A DNA stretch of 64,000 nt, from the NCBI GenBank assembly GCA_021018995.1, contig CM037590.1, forward strand, positions 69,969,597 through 70,033,596, in the 5' to 3' direction. Each line of letters begins with the position of its first letter. Position 1 is the first letter of the stretch. The position numbers were made by a program, and so were the translations under genes. This DNA comes from Chloranthus sessilifolius. Its lineage: Eukaryota > Streptophyta > Magnoliopsida > Chloranthales > Chloranthaceae. Below are positions 613 to 62,566 of this stretch, in pieces. The notes below the pieces were generated by a model that saw only the letters and a list, made by a program, of their open reading frames with translations, was not told where the DNA came from and searched no databases.

Positions 613-1208
613 TGTAACGCCTCGTGAAATCCTGACCGTGAACAGTACCTCACGGTGTGTGTACGTCAAAATGCATGCGTGGCCCGATGAATGGTCGCCG
701 AGCCTGGGGAGGTCATTAGTTGAATAAAGTAAAGAGTGTGTGTGGATTAATATATATATATATACATATATGCATATGGTTTAAGTGTGTGTGCTTAACA
801 CCGAAGCATAAAGGAGTTATAAGAGGAGAAAAGAGAAGTAAATTCTCTTAAATTTCAGTTGTTGGGGGTGATTGATGAAGAGAGAGAGAAAGGACGTGAA
901 GGAGATGAGTATTTATGAGGGTTTTATGATTTTGAGTTCTCGAGGAAATTAAAGCCACACATTGAATTTAGTGTTAGATCTCGCGAAACATGGGGGTTTT
1001 GGCTGCCAAACCCTAGCTTGGAGTGTGAAGTCTCGGATCGTTGGATCGGTCGATCCAAAAGGCATGATCTTGTAAATCGTTTGATAATTTAATTATAGAG
1101 TGTGATTGTAGTTTAAATGGGGTGAATGGAAGAATAAAAATGGAGAAAAAAGGAAAGGAGAATCGATCGGAATGGATCTTTGAGGAACATATCCTAGCCG
1201 TTGAAGGC

Positions 1209-1576
1209 TGGCGAAAACCGACTAGTCGAATTATGAATCGATCGGTCGATTTTCGCTGTGATAGCAGTCAAACATGAATTCGACCAGTCGACTTTGATTC
1301 GATCGGTCGATTCTGAGAAACCGACCGATCGAAGTAGAATTGACCAATCGATTTCCACAAAACAGGAGATAGTAATTTTATAATTTTGGGCAGTCGAACT
1401 GAAAAACTGACCGATTGATTTTGGATATCCAATTGGTCGATTTGAGGATTTGACTAGTTGGTTTAGGTGCCATGTAAAGTACAAGGTTTTTTGAGCGAAA
1501 CCAACTAGTTGAAATTTCAGTTCGACTGGTCGATTTTGGAAACCGATCGGTCGAATTGTGATTCGACCGGTCGATT
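1209..1576. repeat. Palindrome array in 5' LTR of A (CGACCGGTCG type)
   Basis: About fifteen near-palindromic 10-14 bp words of the form TCGAYYRRTCGA, irregularly spaced by roughly 10-30 bp. Examples are CGACTAGTCG, GATCGGTCGA, GACCGATCGA, CGACCAGTCG and CGACCGGTCG. Many deviations look like C-to-T or G-to-A changes at CpG, as expected of methylated DNA. Long minus-strand frames across it simply translate the repeat. Confidence 0.9.
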
Positions 1577-2100
1577 CATGATAGTTGGGTTGTCTTCCAT
1601 TTTATTGTTAAGAACTGAGGGGATATGAGTTACCTCCCTGTTTTCGCGTCGATTCTTACGTTCTGACCGTGATCACATGTGTATTAAGTGTGATTGAACC
1701 TAAGAAGGATGTGAAGCAAACTTGAGCTACGTGAGCCAAGGAATTTAGATCGAGGTGAGGAAAAGCATGTAATATGCGTAGATGAACTTAGTAGGCATGT
1801 ACGTAGTGATATATGAAGCATGTGACTTTTGAATACATTCATTGGGACACTTGTTATGTTTTCTTTGAAATATGCACGCCTTGCTATGTGTGTACGCCTT
1901 TTAAATCAGTCACATAAAATTGTGTGACAGATTTTGAGAAGCACATTGGTACTCACAGTGGTTAGTTTTGAATGTGCGCATGCGAATGTGATGTGAACCC
2001 AAATGTGGTGTGAAGACTTTTAAATTTTGGAAAAACTATTATGTTTATTGCACTTACACGGTGAATAATTATATGCATATTGTTTTAAGGTTATGTGAAT

Positions 2101-2216
2101 ACCCGACCGACGCGGCGATATAACCGCGACCGACACTGCAGGATATCCGCGACCGGTACGGAGGGATATCCGTACAACTTTTGCTCCGGTCCGGTGGGAT
2201 ATCCGATCTTTGGGTT
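2101..2216. repeat. GATATCC/ACCGGT short repeat array in 5' LTR of A
   Basis: About four imperfect units of roughly 25-30 bp built on GACCGGTACGG followed by GGGATATCCG. A homologous array lies at 12230-12332 in the 3' LTR, and another on the minus strand at 28158-28273 in LTR B. It is therefore an LTR module older than the divergence of A and B. Confidence 0.75.
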
Positions 2217-2599
2217 CCAACAGTGGAACCATTTTGTTCGAAGAGTCCCTCCGTTTTGAGGACTTGTAACTTCGATAAAAAGGGTTCAATTGAACGACGA
2301 TGGTGGGTATTCCATTGGGGCTCGATGCTATACTGCTCGGGGATTATTTAAGTGAATTGTTTAAGTGGGTGTGTTGAGTAAAAGAGTTATTTTAAATAGT
2401 GATAAGAAAGTTTCTGAATTTGCTCCCTTTATTCATTTTTGACAAATTACTTTTGGTTTGTGAATTTATATGTTTTCGTTTCAATCAGTTACTCACTGTG
2501 AATTGTCATGAAAGACATGTTTATAAAGAACTATGCATATTAGATTTTGCTATCCTCATTGAGCTAGGATGTAGCTCATTCTTTCGACTATATGTCACA

Positions 2600-2698
2600 G
2601 GTGTAGGTGAAAACTCGATAGCCGACGATCGAGATAGACTAGATACAGACTACGTCCCTGATGAGGAGAATGAGCCCCCTCCAGAGGACTTCTTTTAG
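2600..2698 (+). other. Acidic short reading frame (possible terminal exon) in 5' LTR of A
   Basis: Reads 32 codons to a TAG, starting at the G of a TATATGTCACAG acceptor-like site. The peptide is acidic, ends DYVPDEE..PPPEDFF, and carries no membrane or known domain signature. The frame stays open upstream to 2399, but only the part after the AG is conserved in the LTRs at 27695-27793, 34531-34632 and 43837-43932, and mostly by synonymous-type changes. It could be a spliced exon or an upstream ORF in the element's leader. The function is unknown. Confidence 0.55.
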
Positions 2699-2797
2699 GA
2701 GAATTCTAGCGTGATTCAGATATTATTCTTGGGCTTGGTATGTCAAGCCTTTATGTTGAAAGATAATGTAATATATGTACAAATAATTTTTTTTTGC

Positions 2798-2846
2798 GAA
2801 CCATCATGGGTGATTAGAAGAAATCACTGATGGTTTGGTTCGGTTC
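2798..2846 (+). other. Conserved LTR hairpin, 5' LTR of A
   Basis: GAACCATC is followed by GGTGATT, a short loop, AATCACT and GATGGTT, forming a stem about 100 bp after the acidic frame's stop. Hairpins at the same relative position occur in the other three related LTRs with different stem sequence. It could be an RNA element near the R or polyadenylation region. Confidence 0.6.
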
Positions 2847-3073
2847 TCGTTCCATTCAGGTGCATGCAAGTTAGAACCATCTTTTGGGTTTTTGATAGTA
2901 AGTATTAAAATGGTTGAAGAGACATATTTTATGATCTCTTTATATTGTAATCGTGTACTTCCTTTGCTGTGTGTGTGTTACTACTATGGTTTTCGCTGAT
3001 GCGTTAGGGCACGGTCTCGTAGATCGTGCCGATGGCTTAGGTTTCGAGACTTCGAAATTTGGGCTGTCACAAT

Positions 3074-3085
3074 TGGTATCAGTGC
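3074..3085 (+). other. Primer-binding site of A (tRNA-Met type)
   Basis: TGGTATCAGTGC starts 3 bp after the LTR end. It differs by one base from the plant initiator-methionine tRNA primer site TGGTATCAGAGC. Confidence 0.88.
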
Positions 3086-3196
3086 TTTAAAGCTTTAGAA
3101 AATTCTGACAAGTCTTAGATCGGATTAGAAGCCTAAGATTTGTTAGGATACAGGGACTTTCTGTTGATAGAACCTTTGTTTCATTGTAATAGTGGG

Positions 3197-4572
3197 ATGA
3201 AATCTAGAGGTTGAGGACGCCCTAGAGGCGGCATAGATGATATCAGAGGAACCTAAGCAGTATAGATGATATCCCTGCGGGTACTAGTCGAGAGCAGAGG
3301 CATCCTCTTGAAGAAATGGGACAGAGAGATGAAGCCACTAATAGATTGGCTCAGGCCATGGAGGTTGTGGCCGCTGCAATGGCCCAGCAAACCCAATAGA
3401 CAGCTATGTTGGCAGAGCAGACGGCAATGTTGGCCGCCAACAACACGAGTCATTAACAGCCACCACCACCTCCTCCAGTGCTATTGCCTCCTCATTTGTA
3501 GTTTTCAGGAGATTAAGACCTCCTAATTTTTATGGGCAAACGGATCCGTTAGAAGCGGAGAAGTGGTTAAACCAGATAGAGAAACTCTTATAGCGATTGC
3601 AGGCCAGTGAAGATGAGAAGGTCGGTTGGGCGTCGTTCCAACTAGAGGGTGATGCTGACCGATGGTGGAAGTCGGTATTGGAAAAGAGGGAGATTGAAAA
3701 CCCTCAGGGAGTATGGACTTGGGCGGAGTTCGTTTTAGTGTTCAATAAAGAAAACTTCCTTAAGCAGGTAAGGAATCAGTTAAGAAGGGATTTTTCAAAG
3801 TTGGAGCAGGGAAGTATGACTGTACGAGAGTACGGTAACGAGTTCATAAGGTTGTCAAGGTTTACTCCGGAGTTAGTGGCCATCGAAGAGATGAAGGCCA
3901 GTAAGTTTGAGGAAGGCCTAAGGCCAGTAACACCGAAGAATCTCTGTGTTTGAATTGGAGACTTATGCTGAGGTGATAGGTAAAGCCATTGTCGTAGAGA
4001 GAGACATAGAAAACATGTATAAACGATGAGATCAACAACATAAGAACAAGGCTACTCAAGGGGCAGTGAGCGACTACGACTCGGGGAATAAAAAGCTGAG
4101 GTTTACAGTACCAGCTCCAGTAGCGAGGCAACCGGTCTATACAAGTTATACCAGACCATTCGCACATGCACACATCAGACCTATCCGCATCGAAGGTCCG
4201 GCACAGCCTCAGATTTCAGGAGCGTCCGTTAATCAGGGACTTACGCGAACGACATCTTCAACACCCCAAGTCACGTGTGCCCGTTGTGGCAAATCACATA
4301 AGACATTGGAATGCAAACGGGGCACCGGGGGCTACTTCAAATGCAGAAAGATGGGTCATTGTATCATAGATTGCCCAGAAATGGCAAAGGAGGGAATGGC
4401 TTCAACTCCGATTGGTCGTCAAGGGACGACGGTTTCTGCTCCAACGACCAGACCAATACCACCGAGGAAGCCAACTATTCAAGATCGAGCATATGCAGTG
4501 ACTGCCAAGGATGCTCAGAACGTGAATGACATTATTCAAGGTAGACTCTTATTTTCAAAAATTGCTTTGTAG
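3197..4572 (+). pseudogene. gag of element A, decayed
   Basis: Structural protein gene of the retrotransposon. The N-terminal part (3197-3590) has several stops and at least one frameshift but keeps a glutamine/alanine-rich coiled region and a proline run. The capsid-like retrotransposon gag domain is at 3597-3953, with WASFQLEGDADRWW and EFVRL-type motifs. The nucleocapsid part (4066-4572) has a CX2C (CARC), then a zinc knuckle FKCRKMGHCIIDC whose first cysteine is replaced by tyrosine. The frame ends at TAG 4570-4572, which lies inside the intron-like segment 4541-4660. Gag would package the RNA in cytoplasmic virus-like particles; this copy cannot make a full protein. Confidence 0.85.
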
Positions 4573-4660
4573 AAGCTTTAGAATTTTAGATAGAGAAGGT
4601 GCATCTATCTATGGAATAGTTCACCTAGTTTTAATTGGCTAACATGCATATACTCTATAG
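4541..4660 (+). other. Intron-like segment between gag and protease of A
   Basis: A 120-bp AT-rich segment that starts CAAG|GTAGAC and ends CTCTATAG|GTAC. It holds the gag stop codon at 4570. Removing it would join gag to protease in one frame at a Q-G codon pair. The same segment, 148 bp with ends CAAG|GCATAA and ACGTAG|GTAC, sits at the identical protein position in element D (40623-40770). The two share an internal AGAAGGTGCAT block but are otherwise diverged. Regulated splicing of this kind would parallel the Ogre elements, whose intron lies between protease and RT instead. Confidence 0.6.
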
Positions 4661-7600
4661 GTACATTGCAAATATTTGGGAAGGAAAGTTATGTAGCATA
4701 TGAAGCGACAGTGTTGATAGACCCAGGGTCTACCCACACTTTTGTTATGCCTCGGTTTGCCAAGAAGATGAAGGTCACTCCTGAGACAATGGAATTTATC
4801 TTAGCAGTGTCCATTCCAACTGGAGAATTAGTGGATATAGACTTGGTCTATAAGACAGTAAGGATCGCCATCATGGATGGAGGCGTCTATGAATTGGCAG
4901 CATATTTAATCTTGTTGGAGATGCAAGGATTCGATGTAATCCTTGGCATGGGCTGGCTGTCAACTCATCATGCTACGGTTGATTGTCGAAACAAGGTGGT
5001 TGTATTCAGACCGAACATGAGGAGATCGTTCTGTTTTAGGGGGATAAGGTCGAAGTTCCTGCCATTGGTGTTTGCGGTTAGAGCTGAACGCATGATCAAG
5101 AATGGGTGCAATGGTTACTTGGCGTTCTTGAAGGACGATAAGGAAAGGAAGAACATCTCCGAGATTTCAGTGGTACGTGAATTTAAATATGTCTTTCCAG
5201 AAGAATTACCAGGATTACCTCCTGAGAGAGAAGTGGAGTTCACTATCGACTTGACACCTAGAACGAAGCGTGTTTCTAAAGCACCACACCGAATGACTCC
5301 TGCTGAGTTGAAGGAACTGAAAGAGCCATTGCAAGAATTATTGGATAGGAGATTTGTGAGACCTAGTGTGTCTCATTGGGGAGCACCGATTTTATTTGTA
5401 AAGAAGAAGGATGGGCCGATGAGGCTATGCATCGACTATCGTCAGTTAAACAAACTCACTATAAAAAATAGATACCTTTTGCCTAGGATTGATGACTTAA
5501 TTGATCAGCTGCAAGGAGCGCGATACTTTTTTTAAGATCGATATGAGGTCCGGGTATCATCAGTTGAGGGTCAAGGCAGAGGATATCCAGAAGACGACAT
5601 TTAGAATGTGGTACCGACACTACGAGTTCTTAGTTATGCCGTTTGGTTTGACAAATGCCCCGGCGCCATTTATGGATTTGATGAATTGGGTCTTTAAACC
5701 ACACTTAGATACGTGCGTCGTGGTGTTTGTTGATGATATATTGATATACTCCAAGACAAAGAAGGAGCATGAGGAGCACTTGAGAATCGCACTATAGACG
5801 TTGCGAGAACACTAGTTATATGCCAAGCTCAGCAAGTGCGAATTTTGGTTAGAAAAAGTCAGTTTTTTAGGACGCATCATAACAAAGGAAGGGTCCTAGT
5901 AGATCTGGCTAAGATCGAGGCCGTGGTGAAATGGGAACAGCCAAAGACAGTGACGGATGTGCGTAGTTTCCTTGGTCTTGCTGGTTACTACAGGTGCTTT
6001 GTAGAAGTATTCTAAAAAATATTAGGGCCACTTACGAGACTCACCCGAAAGGATGTAAGATTTGAATAGGTTGAAGCATGCAAAAAGAGCTTTCAAGAGC
6101 TCAAGAAAAGGCTCACTTCAGGTCCAGTGCTTGCGATTCCTTCAGGTAGCGGAGGGTTCGCAATATATAGCGATGCATCACACAATGGTCTAGGCTGTGT
6201 ACTCAATCAGAACAAAAAGGTTATCGCTTACAGGTCAAGGCAGTTGAAAGATAATGAGAAGAATTACCCGACCCATGACCTGGAATTAGCAGTGATTATT
6301 TTCGCGCTAAAGATTTGGAGACACTACTTGTACGGTGAAACTTTTGAGATATTCACCGACCATAAAATCCTTAAGTACCTATTTACTCAAAATGAATTGA
6401 ACATGAGGCAACACAGATGGATGGAGTTTCTCAAAGATTATGATTGTTCCATACAGTACCACCCTGGTAAGGCTAATGTGGTAGTAGACACTTTGAGTCG
6501 TAAGAGTGCGGCTCAGTTAACTAGCCTTATTATGGGGATGCACCGCTGGAAGTTATTGGAGGACCTAGCCTTATATGATGCAAAGTTTGAAGTGCAAGCG
6601 TCAGGGGCCTTTTTGGCTAATATCACAGTACGACCGACTCTTTTTGAACACATTTACGAGCTACAGATGAACGATCTGGAGTTGGTCAAGATTAGGCAGG
6701 GCCTGATTGAGGGCACAAGACCGGATTTCTCGATTAAGGACGATGGGTCCTTGCTATTCAGGGGATGACTGTGCATTCCAGTTGATGCCGAATTGCGGCG
6801 AACTATATTAGATGAAGCTCATAAATTGGTATATGCTATACACCCTGGTAGCACGAAGATGTATCAAGACTTGAGAAAGAGTTATTGGTGGAGAGGTTTA
6901 AAGAAAGTCGTCGCCAAATATGTATCAAGGAGGCTGACGTGCCAACAAGTGAAGATAGATCATAGACACCCTGCTGGATTGCTACAACCTCTGCTAGTGC
7001 CGGAGTGGAAGTGGGAGTCAATTTTGATGGACTTCATATTGGGATTACCCTGATTGCAAGGCGACACAACGCCATTTGGGTCATCGTTGATAGGCTGACG
7101 AAGTCAACCCACTTTCTACCTTATAATACTACGTATACGGCTGGACGACTAGCAGAGTTATACATGAAAGAGATTGCACGACTGCACGACATCCCATTTA
7201 GTATAATATCAGATCGTGACCCTCTCTACACTTCAAAATTTTGGCAAAAGTTTCAAGAAGGGATGGGTACGCGATTAGAATTCAGCTCGGTGTTCCACCC
7301 ACAAATGGACGGACAAACAGAACAGGTGAATCAAGTGAAAGAAGACATGCTCAGAGCTTGTATGCTCATTTTTCAAGGATCATGGGATCAACACCTACCC
7401 TTGGTTGAGTTTGCATACAATAATAGTTTTCAAGCGAGTATCGGTATGACACCGTATGAGGCGCTTTATGGACGGCGATGTCGATCGCCAATCAACTGGG
7501 AAGAGACCTACGATAAGTTTGTATTAGGTCCGGAGGTGCTCGAAGACAATGCTGATATCCTTCGTATGATTAGAGACATGATCAGATCAGCTCAGAGCAG

Positions 7601-8072
7601 GCAGAAGAGTTATGCCGACCTAAAAAGGACAAGTGTTGATTTCTGAGTCGGTGATCACGTGTTTGTCAAGATATCACCCATGAAGGGTGTTATGCGATTT
7701 GGGAAGAGGGGCAAGCTAAGCCCTAGGTATTTTAGACCCTTCGAAGTGTTGGGAAGAGTGGGCGAAGTTTCCTATAGAATTGGACTTCCTCCTCTGTTTG
7801 ATAGAGTACATAATGTATTCCACGTATCCATGCTTCGCAAATACGTTCGAGATCCTACGCATATCTTGGTGGACCAATTGATCGAGATGTACGGGGACAT
7901 GATGATGATAGAGGAGCCGGTACAAATTCTTGACATAAAGGAGCAAGTCTTACGTAATAAAACTATCCCTTTAGTGCTCGTTAAATGGGGACACCATCCT
8001 CCAGAAGAGGCGACTTGGGAGCGTGAAGAGGAAGTTAGAGCTCAGTATCATCGGTTGTTTCAAGAGACCTGA
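4661..8072 (+). pseudogene. pol of element A (protease, RT, RNase H, integrase, chromodomain), decayed
   Basis: Replication polyprotein of a chromovirus. Protease: [10 protein letters not shown] near 4714-4743. RT: conserved [10 protein letters not shown] near 5428 and FVDDILIYS near 5726. The frame breaks near 5533, has stops at 5795 and further breaks near 5880-6130. RNase H: 6127-6520, with YSDAS and the TDHK motif. Integrase: H2C2 zinc finger near 6838-6960 (first paired cysteine now R), core aspartates in MDFILGLP and SDRDPLYT, and the glutamate in the EQVNQVKEDM stretch. The tail has a GPY/F-like segment at 7690-7790 and a chromodomain ending WGHHPPEEATWERE (7984-8030). At least six disabling changes. 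Chromodomains of this type direct insertion to heterochromatin. Confidence 0.92.
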
Positions 8073-8286
8073 GAGAGAGCCTCATTAATGTAATGAATTT
8101 ACACTCGTAAATGTGAAGAGTATATGATAAAATTGTAAGCAACTGTGTAATCAACATCATTAGTGCTATAGAAAGGATGTTTAGTGCAAAATGTGCCTAA
8201 TGTATGGTATAGATGCTTAAAAGGGAAATTTTTTAAGATTTTAGGAGTTAGCAAGCAAAAACACAAATTTTAGTTTGCTGTCATAA
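8073..8286 (+). other. Spacer between pol and the palindrome array of A
   Basis: Low-complexity AT-rich DNA after the pol stop. No gene, repeat unit or clear signal. Confidence 0.6.
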
Positions 8287-8536
8287 ATCGACCGGTCGAA
8301 ATGTAAATCGACTGGTCAAATTTTGAAATTGATCGATCGAACGTGGAATCGACTGGTCGATTTTCACAAACAGAACAACTTTAAGGCTATATAAAAATTG
8401 ATCGGTCAAAAAATTAAACCAACCAGTCGATTTACCAATTTTGACCGGTCGATTTGTAAATCGACCAATCGAAATCGTGACTTAGGTTTCAAGTGGGGAA
8501 ACCGACCGATCAATTTTCAAAATTCGACCGGTCGAT
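8287..8536. repeat. Internal palindrome array of A, upstream of the accessory gene
   Basis: About ten copies of the same TCGAYYRRTCGA words as in A's LTRs, for example CGACCGGTCG at 8289 and 8525. They surround a TATA-like sequence at 8388. The LTR and internal arrays share the motif but not the spacing or flanks, so the internal array is not a copied piece of LTR. Confidence 0.88.
8388..8397 (+). promoter_or_regulatory. TATA-like box before the accessory gene of A
   Basis: CTATATAAAA lies inside the palindrome array, about 400 bp before the accessory ATG. The following 8560-8790 leader has several AGGGTTT/AAACCCTAG telo-box-like words, as in plant 5' UTRs. A separate promoter is inferred, not shown. 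Confidence 0.45.
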
Positions 8537-8790
8537 GTTGTTCAGACGACTTTAAGTAGGGTTTTTCTTGTCCATTCTATCATTTCAAATTTAGGGTTTT
8601 TCGTTGGGGGCTCTGCTAGGGTTTGAGAGGAAAAAAGAAGGGTTTGGAGGTCGACTTCGTTTGGATTCTTCGCCGATTTGGATCCAAATCTGATAAAAAA
8701 GGTAAACCCTAGTTCCTTGAACCTTTGATTTTGGATTTTCCCCTTCTTTTGGATCCCTAGTTGTCATTTTTCTGTGCCTAAACCCTAGCC

Positions 8791-10195
8791 ATGCCTCCTA
8801 AAACAAGACAGTCTTCGAAGCCTTCAGCTTCGAAGCTACCGGACCGACGCCTTGTGCGTCGGCACTGCCACCACCCACGCAACACAAATGCCGGCACCAT
8901 GCACAGCCCCATAGCTTGTGACGCTTTCGAGCGAACCTTTACCACCACCGCCACGACCTTTAGATCAGCCCAATGAGTGGTGGGCGGGGAAGAAGATTGA
9001 GATTGAATACACAATTGATCTGACCCTATTTGAGGACGCGAATGTACAAGGAGAAACTCTGTGGGCTCGAAACTATCTTGAGAAGGCCGGTTTAATCAAC
9101 ATTTTGGAGCCATTACATGGCTATTATTACCCGAGGCTCGTACGCCTCTTTTATCAAAATCTTAAATCGACTAGTACAACTTCCGCGATTGAAACTACAG
9201 TTGATGGATGCAATTATCGATTCACTTGGGATCATGCGTCTAAAGCCCTAGAGTGCTATGACGAATATTTCGACGACATTGATCTATTACCCCCTTTTGC
9301 AACGGACATCCAGTATAAGAAAATTTGGAATGAAATGACCCAGGGACGACACGGTTCCGGCTATTCCATTCGAAGAGTGGATTTGCCTCCCTACTTGTGG
9401 ATGTTGGGTACCATCATCAAATGCAACCTCTACCCTATTTGACACAACATAGAAAGAGTGGAAGAGGTGCAACGAGCATTGTATGCAGCATTTAGGGGTC
9501 GTTGGTTCAATGCACCCAAGATGGTGTTTGAGGGTATGATTCATATACACGGGAAACTGATGAAGGGTGGGGCAAAAAAAAAGGATTGTCTTCTGTATGC
9601 CTATTGTATCTCCTTAATGTTTGAGGAGTACGCGGATACGGGACCATATCAAATATCTCCCGACGAGCCGCGATTGAATGACCGGGTGGAGTTGTTTACC
9701 TTCGTGGATTGGAACCGAACTTATAATCAGTTGAAAAAAGTCCTACCTCTCGAGGGGGCGTAAGCACCACCTCCTCCACCCGAGCCTGAGCAAGAACCAG
9801 GAGAACGAATTCCACCTCCACAGCAACATGTGCCCATAGCACCTGAACCACCAATGCAGCAACAGACCCGTTATTCGATGCCTCCTTCATCACAGCCGGA
9901 CTCCGACATTTTGTGTGATATCCTAGCTCGGATGACCCAAGTCGAAGAGAGAAACCGATTACTACATCGTCGCACGGATCATCATGAGGGTATCTTCGCC
10001 CAATGGATGCAGTATGCGTACCCCGCTGACTATTTGACGCGCCTCGCAGACACTTGTGTCACTGTACCTGACCCGTGGTACTACCCCGCTGGTGCATCTA
10101 CTTCAGGCGGTGTCCCCGGCGATGATAGAGAGGACGTCGCGCCTACGGACGAGGCAGGACCTTCCGGAGTGCCGCCGGGAGATGCGGATGCTTGA
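8791..10195 (+). pseudogene. Accessory gene of element A (putative plant transposon protein type), nearly intact
   Basis: About 465 codons between pol and the 3' LTR, same strand. The ATG follows an AAACCCTAGCC leader and begins MPPKTRQSS. One frameshift lies between about 8860 and 8918; thereafter a single frame runs to 10195, interrupted only by stops at 9440 and 9762. The core (8970-9760) has WWAGKKIE, an HGYYYPRLVRLFYQNL motif, DLPPYLWMLGTI and RWFNAPKMVFEGM. It is followed by a proline/glutamine-rich linker and a coiled segment (LARMTQVEERNRLLHRR). The core resembles the plant domain family named putative plant transposon protein, whose biochemical role is unknown. The gene at 30218-31505 is a homologue in the same place. 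It is distinct from gag-pol and may act in trans or in host interaction. Confidence 0.72.
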
Positions 10196-10750
10196 GCTAA
10201 AGTTTATGGAAGTTTTGATCACTTTTTGCACAATGATTGAAATTAATACAGGTTGTGGGCACAAATGATAGAACTATTGTGGTATGATTGCCAAGTTGAC
10301 TTGTTTTTTTTTTTTGTGTGGTTCTTTTGCAACTATTGTGACCTGGTAGTCACTTGGTAAATATATATGTTAACTTTTTGATTGTGCATGTGGATGTGGA
10401 TATATGAAAATCCGAATGTGTTTCTTTTGTAGGCACTTAAATTTTACCTATTTTGCCTATGCAATTGTGAATGTGTTCAATCATGCAGGTACTTAAACGG
10501 AGGGGTTTCACCTCATGACTTCATCAGTGAGGTCTTGTAGGTGTGTCGTAAGGTGAATGTCGGCTGGCCTTGACTAGTGATTTTCAAATTAAGTTAGGAT
10601 TTTCCCAGTCCTTGTTAACGAATTGGATTCTCTCCAGTTAAACACTTTGATTGCTCTCCCTTCGCTCTCCGAGTACGGGAGGGTGTGTGTGTGTGTCCTT
10701 CCATTAGGATATGTGAAACCTTACTTAATTTTCGAGGACGAAAATTCCTA
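10196..10750 (+). other. 3' untranslated stretch of A
   Basis: Non-coding DNA between the accessory gene and the 3' LTR, with T- and TG-rich runs near 10300 and 10683. It ends in TTTTCGAGGACGAAAATTCC just before the purine tract. That short inverted repeat is a common feature before the polypurine tract of chromoviruses. Confidence 0.6.
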
Positions 10751-10762
10751 AGGAGGGGAGAA
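10751..10762 (+). other. Polypurine tract of A
   Basis: AGGAGGGGAGAA immediately precedes the TGTAACGCC start of the 3' LTR. It is the plus-strand primer site. Confidence 0.9.
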
Positions 10763-10899
10763 TGTAACGCCCAGTGAAATCCTAACCGTAAACAGTACCT
10801 TACGGTGTGTGTACGTCAAAACGCATGCGTGGCCCAGTGAATGGTCGCCGAGTCTGGGGAGGTCATAAGTTGAATAAAGTAAAGAGTGTGTGTGGATTA

Positions 10900-10933
<34 letters not shown>

Positions 10934-12723: not shown

Positions 12724-12822
12724 GGTGTAGGTGAAGACTCGATAGTCGACGATCGAGATAGACTAGATACAGACTACGTCCCTGGTGAGGAGAACGAGCC
12801 CCCTCCAGAGGACTTCTTTTAG
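12724..12822 (+). other. Acidic short reading frame in 3' LTR of A
   Basis: Copy of 2600-2698, preceded by TATACGTCATAG and ending at TAG 12820-12822. It differs from the 5' copy at a few bases, and the frame stays open. In the 3' LTR it could serve as a last exon of transcripts coming from inside the element. Confidence 0.5.
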
Positions 12823-12921
12823 GAGAATTCCGGCGTGATTCGGATATTGTTTTTGGGCTTGGTATGTCAAGCCTTTATGTTAAAAGATAATGTAATATAT
12901 GTACAAATAATTTTTTTTTGC

Positions 12922-53100: not shown

Positions 53101-53860
53101 TATACGTTTGGAACATCTCCTCCATCATGGCCAAGGAAGGGGGATTGGATGGAGATGGGTCATTTGAGGGTTGGAGGTGTATGGATGGGATGTGTGAAGA
53201 GGGAAAATTGGGCATGGCCCCGATAAAATTGGGCATGACCTAGGTAAGTGGTGGGATATGAGGTGGGTTGGAGGAATGACATGGGGCATTGGTGGATGGA
53301 TTAGGCATGTATGGGGAAGATGTATAGGGCATAGAGGTGGAGAATGAGAGAGGAAAATTAGCCATGGTTTCAGAAAAGATAGGCATGACTTGGGTAAATG
53401 GAGGGCTGTGTGGGGGATTGGATATGGTATGGATGGATGTAGGTGGATTGGATTGGGCAGATGAAAAATAGGGTATGTTGGTTAAGGTAGAGGATGGGGT
53501 CGGGTTTTGAACGGGTGTGGAAGGAATGTGAGATGGTTGGAGATGGCCATGGTGAAGGCATGGCTTGGGAAAATGACGGGAAATTTGGTTTTGTGTATTT
53601 TGGGAAGTAGTGGAAGGGAAAATAGGGGCACCGAAAGGGTTGGTTATGCTGAGAGTTGATTGGGTGAGGGGGGTGGAAGTAAAAGCTTCTTCAGTATGGA
53701 AAAGGGTTGGAGAATGTGGTGGGGATGAGTCAGGATCGGTGTAAGCCGGGTCCACAGCCTAAGACATAGCTCGATATCGAGTCGGGTACGGGTGCCTCAG
53801 GCAGGGCTCGTAAAGCTTCCTCCTTCCCCTATGGGATGAAGGAGGGTATGATGATGCCAT
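50200..53860 (-). pseudogene. gag of the minus Tat copy, with expanded Pro-rich head
   Basis: Starts ATG at 53860 (MASSYPPSSHRGRR). A stop at about 53760 is followed by a Ser/Pro-rich region (53755-53240) and a minisatellite-derived QTHQGPM repeat (53020-52560). The gag core follows at 51972-51349, with FKMPAFDKYIGTGNPKAHL and LKQNPNEAFRDYLGHWRALAAQV. A TDHCFSLKHVIQDLVDARKI segment follows at 51013-50900, typical of Tat gag C-termini. Several stops. The head is longer and more repetitive than usual Tat gag. Confidence 0.75.
52560..52960. repeat. Minisatellite in Tat gag head
   Basis: About thirteen units of roughly 24-36 bp around GGGCCCTTGATGGGTCTGG. On the minus strand it reads as GPMAQTHQ/GPIPQTHQ in frame; the opposite strand is also open only because the repeat is periodic. 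Confidence 0.88.
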
Positions 53861-54149: not shown

Positions 54150-54300
54150 ATTCGGGCTACTACTGTGTACCCAAAGCTAGCACAACTATTAGGTGCGCCA
54201 GAGCAAAAAGTTCCCCTTTTTATGCTGGCGCAACTAATACATGCGCCAGTGTAAATTTGAGGATTTTTAGCTTAGCGCAACTATTAGTGGTGCCAGGCAA
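54150..54300. repeat. GGCGCA..TGCGCC inverted words in Tat leader
   Basis: CTGGCGCA..TGCGCCAG at about 54224-54248 forms an 8-bp stem with a 9-base loop (ACTAATACA). Decayed relatives lie at about 54190 and 54275. The same word family is found in the Tat LTR (56635-56757) and at 62484-62566. Confidence 0.75.
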
Positions 54301-54309
54301 GGGTTAAAA

Positions 54310-54775
54310 TATCTTATTTTCGATACGTATCGTCCTGAAGTTCAGGACGATACGTATCGCGTATCGTCCGATACATTCAATGTATCGGTGATACATTGAA
54401 TGTATCGTATCAATACAAATTTTGTTTATTTATTTTTTCAAAAAATCTAAAAAATCAAATTATCGTCCGTATCAGCCGATACGTATCGCGTATCGCCCGA
54501 TTCATTCAATGTATCGACGATACATTGAATGCATCGTTTTGATACTTTTTTTTTTCAAAAAATTTATAAATCAAATCATCGGACGATAATTTGAAATTAT
54601 AGCCCGATAATTTGAATGTATCGTCCGTATCGTCCGATACGGGAGATACATTGCCCATATCAGACGATAATTACTCTATTTTTTAGGGGGTACGATACAT
54701 GGGCAATGTATCGTACCGCCCAGGTCTAAAATTGATACGTATCAGGCGATACATATTGATATCGGACGATTTTTT
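54310..54775. repeat. GATACGTATC-rich palindromic tract
   Basis: Dense mix of GATACGTATCG, CGATACATTGAATG/CATTCAATGTATCG and TCGGACGATAATT words in both orientations, in two diverged half-units (54325-54430 and 54470-54560) and a third near 54600-54770. Probably an inserted palindromic MITE: GCCAGGCAA occurs just before (about 54292) and just after (about 54786) it, although the intervening bases are too different to call a TSD. Confidence 0.7.
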
Positions 54776-55279
54776 GACCCATGGCGCCAGGCAAAAATTG
54801 GGTTCCAGATAGTTTGACAACAGTAGTTCCAGCCCAAAATGAGTCTCCTAATTGGTTTTTTCTGAAAGTTGGGCTTCTGGGGATTGACTGTTATAATGAT
54901 TTATCTCTTTCCTCACCGATCCTAAAGGTTTAGAGGCCAATTTGGGTTCACTATTGCTCTCTTTTTTTTTCCAGATTTTAAGCTTGGTAACGAGGTTACC
55001 CACCCGATATACCTCAAGTGCAAGCACTTTTCTTAGGTACTAGGTGGGCTGGGACTTGCCCGGATCATCACCACTAAGGGCTGCCACCGTACTAAGACCC
55101 GAGAGTTTGTATGTGTGCCTAAATAACCCAACCCTTGAAAATCTACCCCGCAAAAATTAATGTAAATCCCCTTTGTTGGTTCAATTTTTTTTTTCACTTT
55201 TAAGAAAATTTCTTAAGTTCAAAGACCGGGGGTGGTGATCCAGTGCCGCCTCTACAGGCCGACGTTCATTAGCGAAATA

Positions 55280-55626: not shown

Positions 55627-55630
55627 TCTG

Positions 55631-56781
55631 TGCAACCCTGAGATTTTTTACAATCCCGTCATGACGATGCACTCGTAAATAAATATTTAGAGTCGCCACC
55701 CGGAGCTTTTGGTGTCCCAGGAAACCTAGATCAATTTTATAACCACCGAGTGCCACAAATATGACTCTGAATCCGGTCTACGCCAAAGGCTCTTAGGTAG
55801 GGGCTTCGGTTATAGATTGAGAAGGTGTTAGGCACCCAATCAAGCTGCTTAATGCAGTCTCTACTTATGGTCAAAATAAAAATAATATAAAAGAAATGAA
55901 AAAGCCTTCCTCTTTCTCAAAGGGTCTTAAAATCCTATTTGTGCCCTCCGTTCCTACAAAAAATTTAGCTGCGTAACGACACAAATGGGAGGATAGAGGA
56001 AGAATCGAGAAGGTAGAGGAATAGAGGGGAGAGCCGGAGCTCTCGGGCCCTTGTGGCACCACTGTGGAACCTTACGTTGGCTTACTTCGGTGAGCTTTTG
56101 AAGGCATGTATGGTGAGAAATGAGGTTCTAACTCCTAGGGCTTGATAGCTAAGAGGTAGAGAGAGAAGGCTAGGGGATAGCACACACCTAACCTAGAGTT
56201 TTTTGGTGAAATGTTAAGGTCTAAAGAAGGTTTTGAAGTACTGAAATTTATATGGGAATGGGGCACTAGAGGTGAGAGAGAAGGGATTCCTTAATCTCTT
56301 AATTGCAATTTTTTTCAAGCCTTTGTAAAGGGAGGGGTGCTTCTCTATTTATAGGAAAAAGAGACGTTAGGAGGGTGCTTAGAGGCTCATTTGGATTAGC
56401 AATTAGGTAATCTAGCCATCTAAGGTTTGTTAGGGTTTTTAGAGCCTTGAAAAGTGTGAGAAGATGCTCCAATGGTGGATGATAGGGTGGGGCTTTAAAC
56501 CACTTAAGAGGTGGCACATAGATAGTAAATGAGTGCAACAGAACTAGCAAAACACACCCTAAAGGTTAAGATGGTCAACAAGTCAAACCCCATTCTCAAA
56601 ATTCGAGGCAAAAACTCAAGGTTACTGTTCATATGCCTGGCGCAACTAATAGTTATGCTAAGCATATGTATAATAATACAGTGAAGCTACAGTGGCCTGG
56701 AAGTTGGCTGCTCGCGGGGGGAGGGCACACATGTGTGGCGCAAGTAATACTTGTGCCAAATCCCTAGGGGGATTCACAACA
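55631..56781 (-). repeat. 5' LTR of the minus Tat copy
   Basis: Minus strand, probable start TGTTGTGAATCCCC at 56781, end GGGTTGCA at 55631. It has a TATA box CCTATAAATAG near 56336 and the GGTGTTAGGCACCC-like conserved block near 55823-55840. The inner end is firm; the outer end is inferred from where plus-strand pol sequence begins. Confidence 0.65.
56635..56757. repeat. TGGCGCA..TGTGCCA inverted words in the Tat LTR
   Basis: At 56735-56757, arms TGGCGCAAGTA and TACTTGTGCCA pair with one mismatch around a single base. A decayed unit is at about 56637. Both are in U3, upstream of the TATA box. Confidence 0.75.
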
Positions 56782-56789
56782 TATTTATC

Positions 56790-59068
56790 ATTTTACCTTT
56801 AAGCTTCAGAACACGATATCTTCTCGCACACAGCTTCGATTGGGGTGATTCTTGGCTTGTCGAAAAGCTGAGGACTTCTACCCCCATTGTTGAAGAAACA
56901 TAGGATGTCAATCTAGGGACTGAGGAGATTCCCTGAATTACTAAGATTGGAACGTCGTTGTCTCCCGAAGAAAGAAAAAGCATGATCGATTTCCTTTGGT
57001 CATACCAAAAAAATTTTGCCTGGTCATACGAGAACATGCCCGGTTTGGATACCCATTTGGTTGGGCATGAGTTGCTACTCTACCCTGATATGAAGCCGGT
57101 CAAGTAGAAGCTAAGACGCCTACGACCCGAGTGGATGCTGAAGGTCAAGGACAAGGTCATTAAATATTATGATGCAGGATTTCTCATAGTATCTAAATAC
57201 CCACAGTGGCTAGCCAACATCATTCTCGTACCAAAGAAGAATGAAAAAGTTCGCATGTGCATTGATTTTCGAAACTTGAACAGTGCGAGCCCGATGGACG
57301 ATTTCCCATTGTCGCACATCGACATCTTGGTCGATAATACTGCTAGGCACGAGATGCTTTCTTTCATGGATGGATTCTTCGAATACAATGAAATAAAGAT
57401 GACAGAGGCCGACCGAGAAAGGACGGCGTTCATCACCCCCTGAGGAACATTTTGCTATAGAGTCATGCCATTTGGGCTAAAGAATGTTAGGGCAACGTAT
57501 CAGAGAGCTATGACTGTGCTGTTTCATGACATGATGTACTGAGAAATTGAAGTGTATATCGATGATATGATGGCCAAGTCACTAGAGCAAAGCGATCACT
57601 TGGTAAACCTCCAGAAGTTGTTTGAGAGGTTGAGAAAGTATAGGTTACATCTGAATCCACAGAAGTGCGCATTTGGCGCTATGTCTAAAAAACTGTTAGG
57701 ATTCATCGTCAGCAGGAGAGGTATCAAGGTCAACCCAATGAAAGTAAAGGCCATCACAGAAATACCGCCGCCGTCTACTGAGAAAGAGGTTAGAGGGTTC
57801 TTGGGCAGGATACAATATATCAGTTGATTCATTGCACAACTAACTCCAATCTGCACGTCGATCTTCAAGATACTTTAAAAGAACTCACGTGTTGAATGGA
57901 ATGACGATTGTCAAGCAGCATTTGATAAAATCAAAAGCTACCTCCTCAATCCACTTGTGTTGGTACCACCCGAGTCGGGGAGACCACTCTTGATATATCT
58001 CTCCACGACAGAAGTTTTGATGGGATGTGTCTTAGGGCAGCATGACGAGATGGGAAGAAGGGAGCAGGCTATCTACTATCTCAGCAAGAAGTTTACTAAC
58101 TACGAGACGCACTATTCTCATTTGGATAAAGCTTGCCTAGCTCTTGTATGGGCCACTCAGAGGCTTCGCCATTACTTGCTATCCCAAGTCGTTCTACTCC
58201 TAGTCCAAATGAACCTATTGAAGTACTTATTTGAGAAGTCGACTCTTATTATACGAACTGCATGATGACAGCTTTTATTGTCTGAGTTTGATATCACTTA
58301 CGTCACTCAGAAGTCAATCAAGGAGCAGGCACTCGCTGATAATCTTGCAGACAATCCATTGCCCGATTATGAGCCCTTGAAAATTGAGTTCCCTGATAAA
58401 GACATTTTGTTCGTGATGGAAGATGATACTGAAGAAGCAGAGGAATCATGGGTAATGTACTTTGATGGGGCAACAAATGTCAATGGTCAGGGAGTTGGCG
58501 CCATTCTGATTTCGTCAAAAGGATCCCATGTACCTGTCTCCATCAAACTCAACTTCCCTTACACTAATAACATAGCCTAGTATGAAGCTTGTGTAGCAGG
58601 CCTACAAGCAGCTCTTGATTTGAACGTAACACGCCTCCGAGTATTTAGCGATTCACAGTTGATCATTTGCCAAATGAATGAAGATTGGAAGATGAAAGAT
58701 GAGAAACTAATCCAGTCCTCCTTAAATCTGGTCTACTCGAGGCAGAGAGAGAGAGAGATCCCGCTTTGATTAATTAAACTTATTGGATGAGAAAAGGCTA
58801 CAGGCCTTGTCTCATACCCAAGTCTACCAAGGGCGAATCGCACGCGCTTACAATAAACATGTCCACAGTCGAGATCTAAAGGTGGAAGACATTGTGCTGA
58901 AGAAAATCTTCCCTTCTCTCCATGCCGATCTGAGAGGGAAGTTTAAGCCTAATTGGGAAGGGCCTTACATCATTCGGGAAGGGATACACCATCCGCCTAG
59001 CCACTATGGACGGAGATCATTTTCCTGATCCCATCAATGCTGGATATGTCCGTTGGTTCTACTCTTAG
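56790..59068 (+). pseudogene. pol of a second Tat copy, plus strand, integrase deleted
   Basis: Head-to-head with the minus copy. RT begins near 57030 (MPGLDTHLVGHELL) and runs through VYIDDMMAKS (near 57550) and LGRIQYIS, with stops at 57440, 57541, 57825 and 57877. RNase H 58278-58720 has MYFDGATN. The sequence then jumps at a (GA)n run (58741-58758) straight to the integrase C-terminus, LRGKFKPNWEGPYIIREG (58930-58985), ending at TAG 59066. The zinc finger and DDE core, present at 46637-45600 in the minus copy, are missing. Non-functional. Confidence 0.87.
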
Positions 59069-59370
59069 TCTATCGCGGCAAGGTAAGTATTGGTGAAACA
59101 GATATGTGACTGCTTAAGAACCATACAAAAGAGGCTATCATTCCAAACCTAGTAACCAAAAAGCGTCCCTGAAATGATCATATCTTTGGCTACACCATTT
59201 GAGCCTTGGCCTTTCTTTCAATAAACCCTTCCCCGAAAAGAAAAAGAGAAAAAGCATGTACATATACAACACAAAAAGGAGAGAGGAAGTAGAATTACTA
59301 TTAAAAATAAAAAAATATAAAAAAAGCAAAATAACAAAAAGATTGCCTGAAATAAAACAAAGGAACAAAA

Positions 59371-59410
<40 letters not shown>

Positions 59411-60801
59411 GGAAAGAAAGAGAATAGAGAAATAATGGGGCTTGTACAACAAAAATCCCCAAGGAAGAAGTGTGTTGTGGAAAGCTGAAACCGTATCAAG
59501 GAAACCTTTTTTAGCCCAGCATACCTTCAAATCCTAACTTGACCCATGGCCAAGCTACACCCTGAAGAAAACCCTCTTTTTAAGTTCATAAGTAGTCATA
59601 GTATCTGTTAAGTCAACACAAGTCGAGTTATGAGACGACACCAGAACCCCATCTAGCCGGCTATGACGGAATCGACATCTATGTCGTGGCTTTTGTAAAA
59701 AATAAAAATAAATAAATAAAATAAAATACAAGCTCAAAGAAAGATGGACATAGTGAAACTCCGAAAGGACATTACGAGTAAAAAGTGCGAGTTTGTGTGG
59801 ACCAGGTGAAAACCCGAAAGGGCGCTTGGAGGAAGCGAGCTAAAACTATGGACGTGGCGAAAACCTGAAAGGGCGCCACGGGCAAAAAGAGGATGATCTC
59901 GGGCACGAGGAACCCACCTTGGGCATTGTGAGTAAAAAAGGATTAAAAAAAAAAGAAAAAAAAGAAGAGAAAACAAAGGAGGGAAAGGTTTGAAAAAGAT
60001 TGATGAGATTGATGTTTGATAAATCCCTTGATTACTCTCCTATGTTACCCAATTTCTGACTAGGCCGCTCATGTCGGTTCAAATTGGGCCCCGACCAGTT
60101 GTCTTTGTGAAACTGCTTTGTCAAACGTATGACTCAAGGTAAGGAGAAAGATTTGAATTAATCTAAAGGGATTGATGTTCCGGGCGTAATAAAACTGCTG
60201 AAACTCACTTAGATCAGACCACTTAAAAGGGGTTCGACCATGCTCAAAAGGGGACCCGAGATCCCACCCTGTGATTGAGGCATCAAAACAAACAACAAAA
60301 CAGAGAATAAAGGAGAAGGCGAGAAGAATTTTTGTCAAAGATGATAATTTCCCTTTTCCACTTTCATGCCCACACTTTGTGCACCTAGGCGAGAAGACCT
60401 TTTGTCAAAGATAATAATTTCCCTTTTTCCATTTTCATGTCCACACTTTGTGCACCTGGGCCGGAAGACCACGTTTTGCTAAAAGATAATGATTTTCCTT
60501 TTTCACTTCCATGCCCAGGCTGTGCACATTTCATCTCAAAAGGGACCCATCAACCAAAAAGAATAAAAAAAAAAAGACTTTTTGTAAATATAATAGATTT
60601 TCCTTTTCCATTTACAACTGTACTGCTTACACCACATCCCAAAAAAAAATATCGGTGTGATGTCTAGCTTTCTTTTCTTTCCTTTATATAAAAACATAAA
60701 TAAAAATATACCCAAAAAATATGTGTGTATCTGAATAGGGGTTTCTTACGCCCCTTCCTGTAATTCTGACCTGTGCAAAAAGATATATGTACAGGAGGGA
60801 A
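59069..60801 (+). other. 3' tail of the plus Tat copy
   Basis: Non-coding; it aligns in reverse with 44282-45208. It contains the GAAAACCCGAAAGGGCGC repeats (about 59811-59883) and purine-rich low-complexity runs (59270-59420, 59940-59990). It also holds the GGCCGCTCATGTCGG leader-like segment (60061-60165) shared with 41931-42019, a 71-bp tandem repeat, and a T/A-rich end. Confidence 0.65.
60318..60530. repeat. 71-bp tandem repeat in the Tat 3' tail
   Basis: Three units starting at 60318, 60388 and 60459, each with GGCGAGAAGA or GGCCGGAAGA and ending ACTTTGTGCACCT or GCTGTGCACAT. A degenerate fourth follows. Tandem repeats in this position are known in Tat elements. Confidence 0.85.
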
Positions 60802-62230
60802 TCAACGGCCCAGCTCGTGCTTCAAGGTACTAATCTTCGTGTGAAAACCATCCTCCCGAACATTTCGCTCAGTCAGCCAGCGACCATGCAGGCTCTGTAC
60901 CTCTTCTGAGAAGCATTGGTAGCCCCAAGAATAAACATTCAAGGCTCCTTCCAGACAAAGGACCTCGCTCTCAGCTGTGCTAGCTCTGATCTCTGCTACC
61001 TCTGCTCTAACTTTCTCTTGTGCCAAAAGCTCTTGCAGGACCCTCTTCTCATTGGTCAGCAACTCAATGCAAACTTGAAGCGCTGTCTCCTTCTTCGGCC
61101 AGGGCCCTCCCACATCAATACTCTTTGCTTGATCCAGATGATCATCAGTAGGCTGCTTAGCTGATAGCCAAGCTCATACTCTGGGGAAGACTGGATTGAA
61201 TCTCCCTGCTCCAAATCGCACATTAGTGTCGATTGACGAGTCTCCCAAAGAGGAGCAATCTGATCCATGTCCCCAAAGGACCCCCTAGAAAAGATCAAAT
61301 CACATAAAGGGGGTTTCGCTTCGCAAGGCACCTGCTGAGAGTAGTCGAGCTGACGCAGAACTCAAAATGGGAAGTAGAAGGTGTTGTCAGTCAATCCTAG
61401 GAGGGCGATGCCCTCATGATCTCTCGAGCGAACTACTGGAAAGGTCCGATCCAACCAAGGGAGTCTCCATACCAGTTCTATATCAGTCAGCCAAAGCTTC
61501 AACTCTGACGGATCTCCCTGTGGAATCATGTGACACCTGCCCAGAAAGCATCAGACCACCTCACCTCGAACAACGTAAAAGTGAGGCATGGGTCCCAAGA
61601 TGGCGAAATGCTCACCTAACTAAACTTGGAGCAGCAAAGGACATCCCCTGAGGCTCTCCACCTTGCCTGGAGCGAATGCATCAAGGCGCCGGTATAGTTC
61701 AGCAAGGACCAGATGCATCACTGATCGGCCCTCATCCAACTCGGTCAAAATGTCACAGAGAGCCAGAGAGAAGCTTTCTCCTCCAGTAAAGAAGAGGACT
61801 TCCGAGATGAGACCGAGAGTAAAGGCCTTCATATTGAAGAGATTCCTAATCGGCAATTTTCGAAGACTTTCATCATCAAAAAGTTCTTTGAGGAATTTGA
61901 CCGAACACTTTGTGGGCCCCCCGATAAGACTTTTCTGATATTCAAAGTTCTTCAAACCTAGGGAGAGGTAAACGGCCTTAGCATAGCCCGATTTCGGCAT
62001 GACTCTTGCAAGGCCACTGTGGAGCTTCAAGCCTGACAGATTGGACAACTCTTCAACAGTAGGAGATAGTTCTCGCTTCCCAAAATGAAATACATGGGCA
62101 TTTGCATCCTAAAACGAGATCGCCGCATGAAGTAGGTCCCACCGTGGAGGAACCTCAAGAAAGAAGGAAAGACGGGATAGTCCAAGCCACTCTAGATCGA
62201 TGAGCTCGCTCTCATTCAAGCTCCCAAGCT
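60802..62230 (-). pseudogene. Antisense accessory gene of the Tat element (DUF7745/plant-mobile-domain-like)
   Basis: Minus strand, opposite to the adjacent Tat pol. The start is not fixed; coding sequence is evident from about 62230 (LNESELIDLEW). It continues LEVPPRWDLLHAAISF, a TAG replacing the expected Trp codon, then DANAHVFHFGKRELSPTVEEL and the long open part 62048-61620 with LCDILTELDEGRSVMHLVLAELYRRLD. A stop at about 61620 and shifts follow, then a C-terminal coiled segment (61113-60802) rich in Glu/Leu. The W..L..A..F.D...F.FG..EL.PTVEE pattern is that of the plant family DUF7745 and its mobile-domain relatives, of unknown function and recurrent in Tat elements. Confidence 0.65.
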
Positions 62231-62455
62231 AACTTTTTAGAAAATTGGGCCCCAAGCCCAAAGAAGGGAGTAAATTGGTTCCAGGCCTTGTATGTAAGGA
62301 AAGGTTGGAAAGCGGGTCCATGGACCTATAAAGATTTTTCAAGAATATAAAATTCAATGTATGATGATGGACCCACCTTTGGGATAGCAAGGAGAGAAAG
62401 AAACAGTAAAAAATATCAGGTCAAAGAGAAAAGAGAAAGAAAATGAGCTCTCTCG

Positions 62456-62467
62456 GGCTTATAATGG
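62456..62467 (-). promoter_or_regulatory. TATA-like box before the antisense gene
   Basis: CCATTATAAGCC on the minus strand, about 230 bp before the first evident coding sequence and about 17 bp downstream of the inverted-word cluster 62484-62566. Confidence 0.4.
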
Positions 62468-62483
62468 CCCACTGCCCCCAAGT

Positions 62484-62566
62484 TGCACCTAGTGCATGTA
62501 ATACATGTGCCAGTGCAAATTCCCCCCAAGATTGGCCTGGCACATGTAATACATGCGCCAAACCAA
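62484..62566. repeat. Inverted words upstream of the antisense gene (Tat family motif)
   Basis: TTGGCCTGGCACATGTAATACATGCGCCAA-like unit at 62532-62561 and a TGCATGTAATACATGTGCCAG-like unit at 62493-62514. The same GGCRCA..TGYGCC family is seen in the Tat LTR and leader. Confidence 0.75.

Follow-up and report, generated by a model that had tools for sequence, protein, structure and literature searches.

Why do the long terminal repeats (LTRs) of several retrotransposons carry arrays of short palindromes, and why does an element's palindromic word recur in front of its extra open reading frame (ORF)? We addressed these questions in a 64-kb window of Chloranthus sessilifolius DNA (assembly GCA_021018995.1, contig CM037590.1, positions 69,969,597 to 70,033,596 of the forward strand). 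The window holds a complete Tekay-type retrotransposon, A; a relative of it, C, on the minus strand; two further Tekay-type LTRs, B and D; and members of a Tat/Ogre-type family (Table 1). A first-pass annotation of this DNA had reported palindrome arrays in the LTRs. We find that in A and C the LTR word also forms a second array before the extra ORF, and we propose, with a probability of roughly 0.45, that the arrays serve as operator-like sites in the DNA to which a dimeric regulator, likeliest the product of the extra ORF, would bind, acting both on the LTR and at its own promoter.

Table 1. Features of the 64-kb window, in order of position (TSD, target-site duplication; PBS, primer-binding site; PPT, polypurine tract)
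Feature	Position	Strand	Details
Element A	613-13197	+	complete, Tekay type; TSD GCCTC
5' LTR of A	613-3071	+	direct repeat with 10763-13197, 89% identity; ends TGTAACGCC...TGTCACA; TSD GCCTC
LTR array of A (5')	1218-1574		word TCGACCGGTCGA; 14 sites in groups of 2, 4, 4, 4
PBS and gag-pol of A	3073-8072	+	PBS TTGGTATCAGTGC; Pfam gag, protease, RNase H, Chromo; chromodomain at end
Second array of A	8288-8535		word TCGACCGGTCGA, 10 sites; TATA-like CTATATAAAA at 8387; ends with a group of two
Extra ORF of A	8791-10195	+	Transposase_32-like; two in-frame stops, one frame change; PF20167 27.4 and 34 bits, cut-off 45
3' LTR of A	10763-13197	+	PPT AAGGAGGGGAGAA in front; array 11373-11693, 12 sites
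3' LTR of C	27310-29642	-	67% identity to LTR of A over 796 columns; PPT AAGGTGGGATGAA
LTR array of C	28853-29034		5 sites, 3 with at most 3 mismatches
Extra ORF of C	30218-31574	-	several open pieces, acidic tail
Second array of C	31725-31851		C's LTR word; 3 sites from matching, fourth (31838) by eye
Solo LTR B	34095-36760	-	flanks CCTTC / CCTTT, no PPT; sits between the parts of C
LTR array of B	35465-36009		word TTGATCGATCAA, 21 sites
gag-pol, probably of C	37207-41852	-	66-69% identity to gag-pol of A, three pieces; Pfam SH3_Tf2-1, Integrase_p58_C
Solo LTR D	42025-44276	+	TSD CAATT
LTR array of D	42760-42933		words TCGACTGTCGA x4, then TCGATGGTCGA x4, either strand
Internal Tat-type array	54178-54295		3 sites (54178, 54226, 54273), steps 48 and 47 bp
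Proposed 5' LTR, Tat-type element	55629-56778	-	sites 56638, 56736; TATA CTATAAATAG near 56354; PBS TGGCGACTCTGCTGGGGA past its end
PMD-like extra ORF	61620-62321	-	antisense to Tat (+) pol; in-frame stops; PF10536 26.7 bits, below cut-off 34.9
Tat-type array before PMD-like ORF	62490-62560		2 sites (62490, 62538), step 48 bp; about 26 bp upstream of TTATAAG (62464), minus strand

Palindrome arrays in Tekay-type LTRs

In all four Tekay-type LTRs the array begins about 600 to 750 bp into the repeat. For the 5' LTR of A, 12 sites were found by matching and two (1450 and 1501) were added by eye. Neighbouring sites are spaced at a mean of 20.5 to 20.9 bp in A and B and 19.3 bp in D, mostly in groups of four, and 41 to 51 bp lead to the next group in these three, with two exceptions in B (64 and 75 bp). 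Both LTRs of A open with a group of two, the 3' LTR also closes with two, and B holds one run of nine.

Perfect 10-bp palindromes were counted against dinucleotide shuffles. The 5' LTR of A contains 9 against 2.2 in shuffles and the LTR of B 18 against 3.1 (0/200 shuffles reach either count), and the 3' LTR of A contains 5 against 2.1 (9/200). No excess was found in the LTR of C (3 against 2.3, 78/200; in the array alone 1 against 0.18, 33/200) or in that of D (2 against 2.1, 133/200), whose array has 0 perfect even palindromes against 0.66. The words of D are odd-centred, and its array holds 8 of the 13 copies of TCGANNNTCGA in the window. Of the arrays reported by the first-pass annotation, those of A (1218-1574 and 11373-11693), B and D were recovered where they had been placed, while that of C is not enriched in palindromes; a density above that of shuffled LTRs holds for A and B, and does not hold for C and D when perfect even palindromes alone are counted. 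Of the five gypsy families of that annotation, B and D are solo LTRs, and the fifth array (23915-24021) consists of three copies of ACGGACGTCCGT in an LTR-like stretch (23864-24780) of unproven gypsy identity, about 120 to 185 bp ahead of a TATA-like box at 24109. A looser GCGCAATT set came down to three scattered matches (33881, 33990 and 36801).

Palindromes exceed shuffles outside the known LTRs as well, at 13198-27000 (20 against 12.5, 1/40 shuffles reaching), which argues against specificity, and likewise at 45000-53700 (11 against 6.9, 1/40); dinucleotide shuffles revealed no excess in the internal part of A, the pol of C or 57000-64000. A blind finder, which required a perfect 12-bp palindrome with at least four near copies within 500 bp, returned the 5' LTR array, the second block of A and B from the window and nothing from 0.97 Mb of shuffled sequence; it passed over the 3' LTR of A, C and D. 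When palindromy was not assumed, the most repeated 10-mer in both LTRs of A, in B and in D fell within the array and was at least 75% self-complementary, with one extra match outside the array for each LTR of A and for D, where this 10-mer is the spacer beside the word rather than the word itself. In the LTR of C and in both second blocks it was less than 75% self-complementary (0.4 to 0.5), so that 4 of 7 array regions passed, compared with 5 of 30 control tiles. The arrays are real.

The words are the best conserved part of the A and B arrays. Their columns hold 1.2 to 1.6 bits against 0.2 to 0.6 bits in the flanks, and 1.0 against 0.3 bits at the five sites in the LTR of C; word positions, unlike flanks, were picked by matching, and chance would not give such a density of matches. 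Between the two LTRs of A, 28 of 140 word positions differ (20%), compared with 17 of 181 in array spacers (9%) and 129 of 2081 in the remaining LTR, and 15 of the 28 word differences are CpG transitions. That the words diverged most between these LTRs and yet are alike within arrays points to fast decay once the element fell silent and to words kept alike while it was active. The ratio of observed to expected CpG is 1.0 to 2.9 in the arrays and 0.70 in the window; the word of B has one CpG, and its array (ratio 1.01, 2.7 CpG per 100 bp) lies near the window mean of 2.9. The two half-sites showed no covariation in a test of low power (p 0.50 to 0.75), which is the expectation if each is matched by one protein subunit. 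Tandem periods of 19 to 21 bp were detected in the arrays.

Two further features recur in these LTRs. In all four families, a splice-acceptor-like GTCAYAG|G is followed in one frame by an acidic peptide (GVGENSIADDRDRLDTDYVPDEENEPPPEDFF and relatives) that runs to FF, FFP or FYP and a stop, at 2596-2700, 12720-12830, 27660-27800 (-), 34510-34640 (-) and 43835-43940; it has one internal stop in B and is a possible coding exon within the LTR. A donor-like site (CGAG|GTRGGGAAA and relatives), recognised by eye, follows the array after about 160 to 240 bp, at 1751 (+), 28652 (-), 35301 (-) and about 43097 (+); since it lies beyond the array in four LTRs, the arrays may be part of a 5' leader.

The same word before the extra ORFs

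The extra ORFs of A and C are homologous (tblastn, 1e-21). The arrays that precede them, like those of the Tat-type family before its PMD-like ORF and at the internal place, go beyond what the first-pass annotation had recorded. In A the TATA-like box sits between two site groups of the second array; in C a TATA-like CTATATATAG (31708-31717) stands between array and ORF, with 7 bp to the nearest array site. With at most two mismatches the word of A has 21 matches in the window, seven in each LTR array, six in the second array and one at 1042 in the 5' LTR. The 14-mer of C, with at most three mismatches, occurs at six plus-strand places, three in the LTR and three at 31725-31829, and nowhere else in the window (eight places when both strands are merged). 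With the words masked, the spacers of the LTR and pre-ORF blocks of A remain weakly similar (score reached by 0 and 1 of 300 shuffles); the array of A against the unrelated array of B scores nearly as well (3/300), so composition explains part of it. The two blocks of C have no detectable spacer similarity with words masked (85/300).

Genome-wide, the exact word pair of A occurs at 78 places in 2.17 Gb, and its reversed control at 0. Around such places we took 26 stretches of 10 kb (L-numbers), nine of which contain an extra-ORF match. Both array places could be read in six, and all six have the word of A at the two places (sites at the two places: L006, 5 and 10; L014, 5 and 9; L016, 8 and 5; L017, 10 and 12; L026, 5 and 8; L027, 4 and 11). 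The other three had an RNase H piece at the block place (L008), another LTR directly upstream (L029) or the 3' LTR beyond the stretch (L021). L022 carries near-identical TCGCTCGAGCGA blocks at 1890-2060 and 4260-4420, 2.4 kb apart; because their linkers are also near-identical, they are probably two LTR copies, and they were excluded from the agreement count. A TATA-like box lies within the array or at most about 50 bp after it in 9/9 pre-ORF blocks (those of A and C, the six agreeing elements and L021), compared with an average of 3.0/9 for random spans of equal length, none of 2000 draws reaching nine.

The stretches also contain Tekay-like LTRs that had not been seeded by the word of A. Seven of the eight with a readable array place carry arrays, with other words: TCGATTAATCGA (L007, L015, L028), TTGATCGATCAA (L012, two), TCGCTCGAGCGA (L029) and TCGTTCGATCGA (L026, an imperfect palindrome obtained from matching). 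Together with the 78 places, this runs counter to one outcome that the first-pass annotation had named as refuting, arrays confined to these few copies. The companion claims, that every family has its own word and that sequence is fully replaced, were too strong: LTRs that are unequally similar share TCGACCGGTCGA, and an outer TCG...CGA is common to the words TCGACCGGTCGA of A, TCGATTAATCGA, TCGATGCATCGA (L025), TCGCTCGAGCGA, which is close to the word of C read on the opposite strand, TCGTTCGATCGA and the TCGA-CTG-TCGA of D. Off this frame are B (TTG...CAA) and L020 (TCA...TGA). Since most words fit TCG-N6-CGA, what varies is mainly the core. Additional array words were seen in L020 and L025 (TCAATCGATTGA, TCGATTAATCGA and TCGATGCATCGA), and a second A-word cluster is present in L011 and L019. 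Elsewhere, the word pair of B was absent from viral contigs and that of A from prokaryote contigs.

A similar layout, with a word in the LTR and before a different extra ORF, is seen in the Tat-type family. Its 23-bp palindrome TGGCGCAACTAATAGTTGCGCCA, composed from its own matched sites, has seven matches in the window at up to seven mismatches, compared with 0 to 3 in ten mononucleotide shuffles. The LTR sites are 98 bp apart, about 285 bp ahead of the predicted TATA. The LTR ends were set by eye on the single copy of that LTR in the window, and the LTR and the PMD-like ORF come from separate copies of the same family (79 to 83% alike), not from one copy. The sequence TGGCGACTCTGCTGGGGA we take to be the known Tat/Ogre PBS. 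Next to the internal array, 54300-54780 is occupied by a different repeat, in which CGATACGTATCG and ATACATTCAATGTATC inverted words are frequent and a copy of about 118 bp stands in tandem; its CGATACGTATCG part (54300-54740) was for that reason kept out of the array counts.

A candidate operator and competing explanations

Each palindrome would be the site of a symmetric, dimeric protein, and phasing near 21 bp, or two helical turns, would bring neighbouring sites onto one face of the DNA. Because an element's word stands both in its LTR and at the predicted extra-ORF promoter, a single factor can serve the two. The best candidate would be the product of the extra ORF itself, and the result a self-controlled switch, by activation or anti-silencing, with a core word that drifts apart between families. 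We infer from the sequence that a protein may bind the arrays, that the extra ORF may encode this binder and that binding may have a regulatory effect. The N-terminal extra-ORF pieces are basic (+8 in A, +9 in C) and the tail in C is acidic (net charge -36 over 137 amino acids); this would fit a transcription or chromatin factor, and is suggestive only. A wider version, which we regard as possible and somewhat doubtful, is that at least two plant LTR-retrotransposon lineages run private, diversifying operators. In each, the extra-ORF protein would bind phased palindromes, TCG-N6-CGA in Tekay and 23 bp long in the Tat type, at its own promoter and in the LTR, so that its own family alone is activated or released from silencing, and core changes would keep the families apart. 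The array of B was dropped as a case of an element lacking an extra ORF, since B is a solo LTR.

Several observations weigh against regulation by the extra-ORF product. The arrays lie about 400 to 480 bp downstream of the predicted TATA in the LTRs of A, B and D (no TATA was assigned in the LTR of C), and around or just before the TATA at the extra ORFs, so that placement differs between the two. Site steps in C are irregular (22, 32, 38, 69 and 76 bp), and one unseeded LTR, L009, has no array. The six agreeing elements were picked by the word of A, which makes the agreement test conditional, and the LTR of L027 was recognised from a 74-bp match and its position alone. The word of A precedes a far-diverged ORF in L021 (31.5% identity over 111 amino acids to the piece of A) and also stands in LTRs with little likeness to those of A (L027), so word and protein are not in strict step. 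The extra ORFs miss the Pfam gathering cut-offs, PF20167 for A and PF10536 (PMD) for the Tat type (Table 1), and two pieces of C gave no PF20167 match. A PDB sequence search found nothing better than E 0.86, and thus no matching solved structure, and an AlphaFold model with three rows was rejected as unusable (predicted local distance difference test 36.9, predicted template modelling score 0.27). The extra ORF of A had no protein relatives at E 0.01 among 3864 candidates from a large protein set.

A serious rival, although we consider it unlikely, is that host dimeric transcription factors bind the arrays and co-regulate the LTR and the extra-ORF promoter, and that families switch from one host factor to another, as with Tnt1-type LTR enhancers. 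A host factor would explain why one word serves LTRs of differing similarity and a far-diverged ORF, and the common TCG...CGA frame could reflect a single factor family. A conserved factor would not, however, predict many cores within a clade, nor the agreement of words within elements (6/6 word-picked, plus A and C). Distinctly less probable is a function in RNA, in which the palindromes would pair as hairpins, or as duplexes between molecules of genomic RNA, to serve in dimerisation or packaging, or as a Rev-like signal for export or splicing. The arrays do fold far better than their mononucleotide-shuffled versions (60 per array, z -3.4 to -12.0), some stability comes from the spacers in A, C and D (z -1.3 to -3.7), and site orientation alternates in the second group of D. 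This strong folding nevertheless comes mostly from the words themselves, the spacers are unhelpful in B (z +1.3), and half-sites lack covariation in the low-power test described above. The pre-ORF arrays of C and of the Tat type lie upstream of the predicted TATA and so outside that mRNA, and the variable position of arrays relative to the TATA is easier to reconcile with an element that works as DNA than with one that works as RNA. Of the three roles offered by the first-pass annotation, binding of a dimeric protein is the best fit, whereas kissing-loop dimerisation as the main role is disfavoured by the missing covariation, by how little the spacers add to folding and by the variable position of the arrays relative to predicted start sites.

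We think it very unlikely that the arrays are functionless minisatellites, expanded by neutral turnover and copied between LTR and internal region. The tandem periods and the weak masked-word similarity between the LTR and pre-ORF arrays of A, in part compositional, are what such turnover would leave; the near-random spacers beside faster-mutating words that remain alike are not, nor are the blocks of C, which have the word in common and no detectable spacer similarity (85/300), or the spacing that A, B and D keep without keeping sequence. Least probable of all, in our estimate, is that the arrays nucleate host methylation or small RNAs that silence the element. Their CpG ratios above that of the window and the CpG transitions between the LTRs of A (15/28 word differences) agree with this idea, but the word of B has a single CpG in an array near the window mean, and an element should not preserve the targets of its own silencing.

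Known systems and the elements of the window

The nearest known system is VANC, the anti-silencing protein of the Arabidopsis VANDAL DNA transposons, which binds its motif and removes methylation, followed by TnpA of Spm. In the accessible text of two reports, VANC target motifs are family-specific, short, tandem and non-coding (PMC5735166, PMC10398659). Shared with our arrays are family-specific short motifs in non-coding tandem repeats that differ between related families, and an extra element-encoded protein; a motif repeated in the element's non-coding DNA is found here too, though one word is common to several LTR families. Different, as far as those texts go, are the LTR retrotransposon setting, the palindromes phased near 21 bp and the arrays at two promoter-like places; for our arrays, binding and hypomethylation would be conjecture. 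Pfam and PDB searches of the extra ORFs gave other or no matches, no comparison having been aimed at VANC. TnpA recognises a 12-bp motif repeated in the element's own promoter, and so resembles our proposal in being an element-encoded protein on repeated short sites of its own promoter. The activation and demethylation by Spm/En TnpA, as cited in PMC10398659, are a demonstrated protein effect in a DNA transposon, whereas here the effect is conjectural.

Among retrotransposons, Retand combines TRP28 ORFs in antisense with tandem repeats, specific to each family, that lie between pol and the 3' LTR, and there, too, an extra ORF is predicted to bind DNA and a regulatory role is proposed; the text consulted leaves repeats and DNA-binding ORFs unconnected and describes no LTR-linked word and no palindromes (PMC11963269). 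Unlike in Retand as described there, the extra ORF is Transposase_32-like and in sense in the Tekay elements here, and PMD-like and antisense in the Tat type. A related extra-ORF domain, PF20167, is reported for sunflower Athila, along with a 5' extra ORF in Tekay and predicted nuclear localisation; the string 'palindrom' has 0 occurrences in the text available (PMC11728184). The host PMD proteins MAIN and MAIL1 are linked to a short promoter motif, 'DOWN', with direct binding unproven in the accessible text (PMC7156037, PMC9899485); they are host genes, and compared by eye, the motif, CATGCAGTTT, has no clear match to the Tat-type word.

Among the matches listed in searches of open-licence full texts, no paper described a word common to LTR and extra-ORF promoter. 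Most extra ORFs of plant LTR retrotransposons lack an established function, according to the consulted parts of two studies (PMC7264820, PMC11963269), and the shared word suggests a concrete target for them. If our proposal holds, it would provide a retrotransposon counterpart of VANC, a function for unexplained extra ORFs and many ready-made pairs of protein and site; changes of operator core would avoid cross-activation and help explain the many related families in one genome.

As to the elements themselves, A is best assigned to the Tekay clade of chromoviruses, a name that rests on the chromodomain after integrase (PF00385, 27.2 bits against a cut-off of 25.1), a Met-tRNA PBS, the PPT, a 5-bp TSD and LTRs longer than 2 kb. 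For comparison, three Tekay elements of Beta are listed with LTRs of about 2.6 to 3.0 kb, one truncated to 1.0 kb (PMC3605345). The minus-strand gag-pol (41852-37207), extra ORF (31574-30218) and LTR (29642-27310) most likely form the single element C, to judge from order, orientation and PPT. D is nested in a Tat-type element, since 41912-42019 carries on a similarity to 60063-60168. The Tat-type (-) element has GGGCC-rich tandem repeats of 24 and 39 bp at 52582-52970, within its proline-rich gag region.

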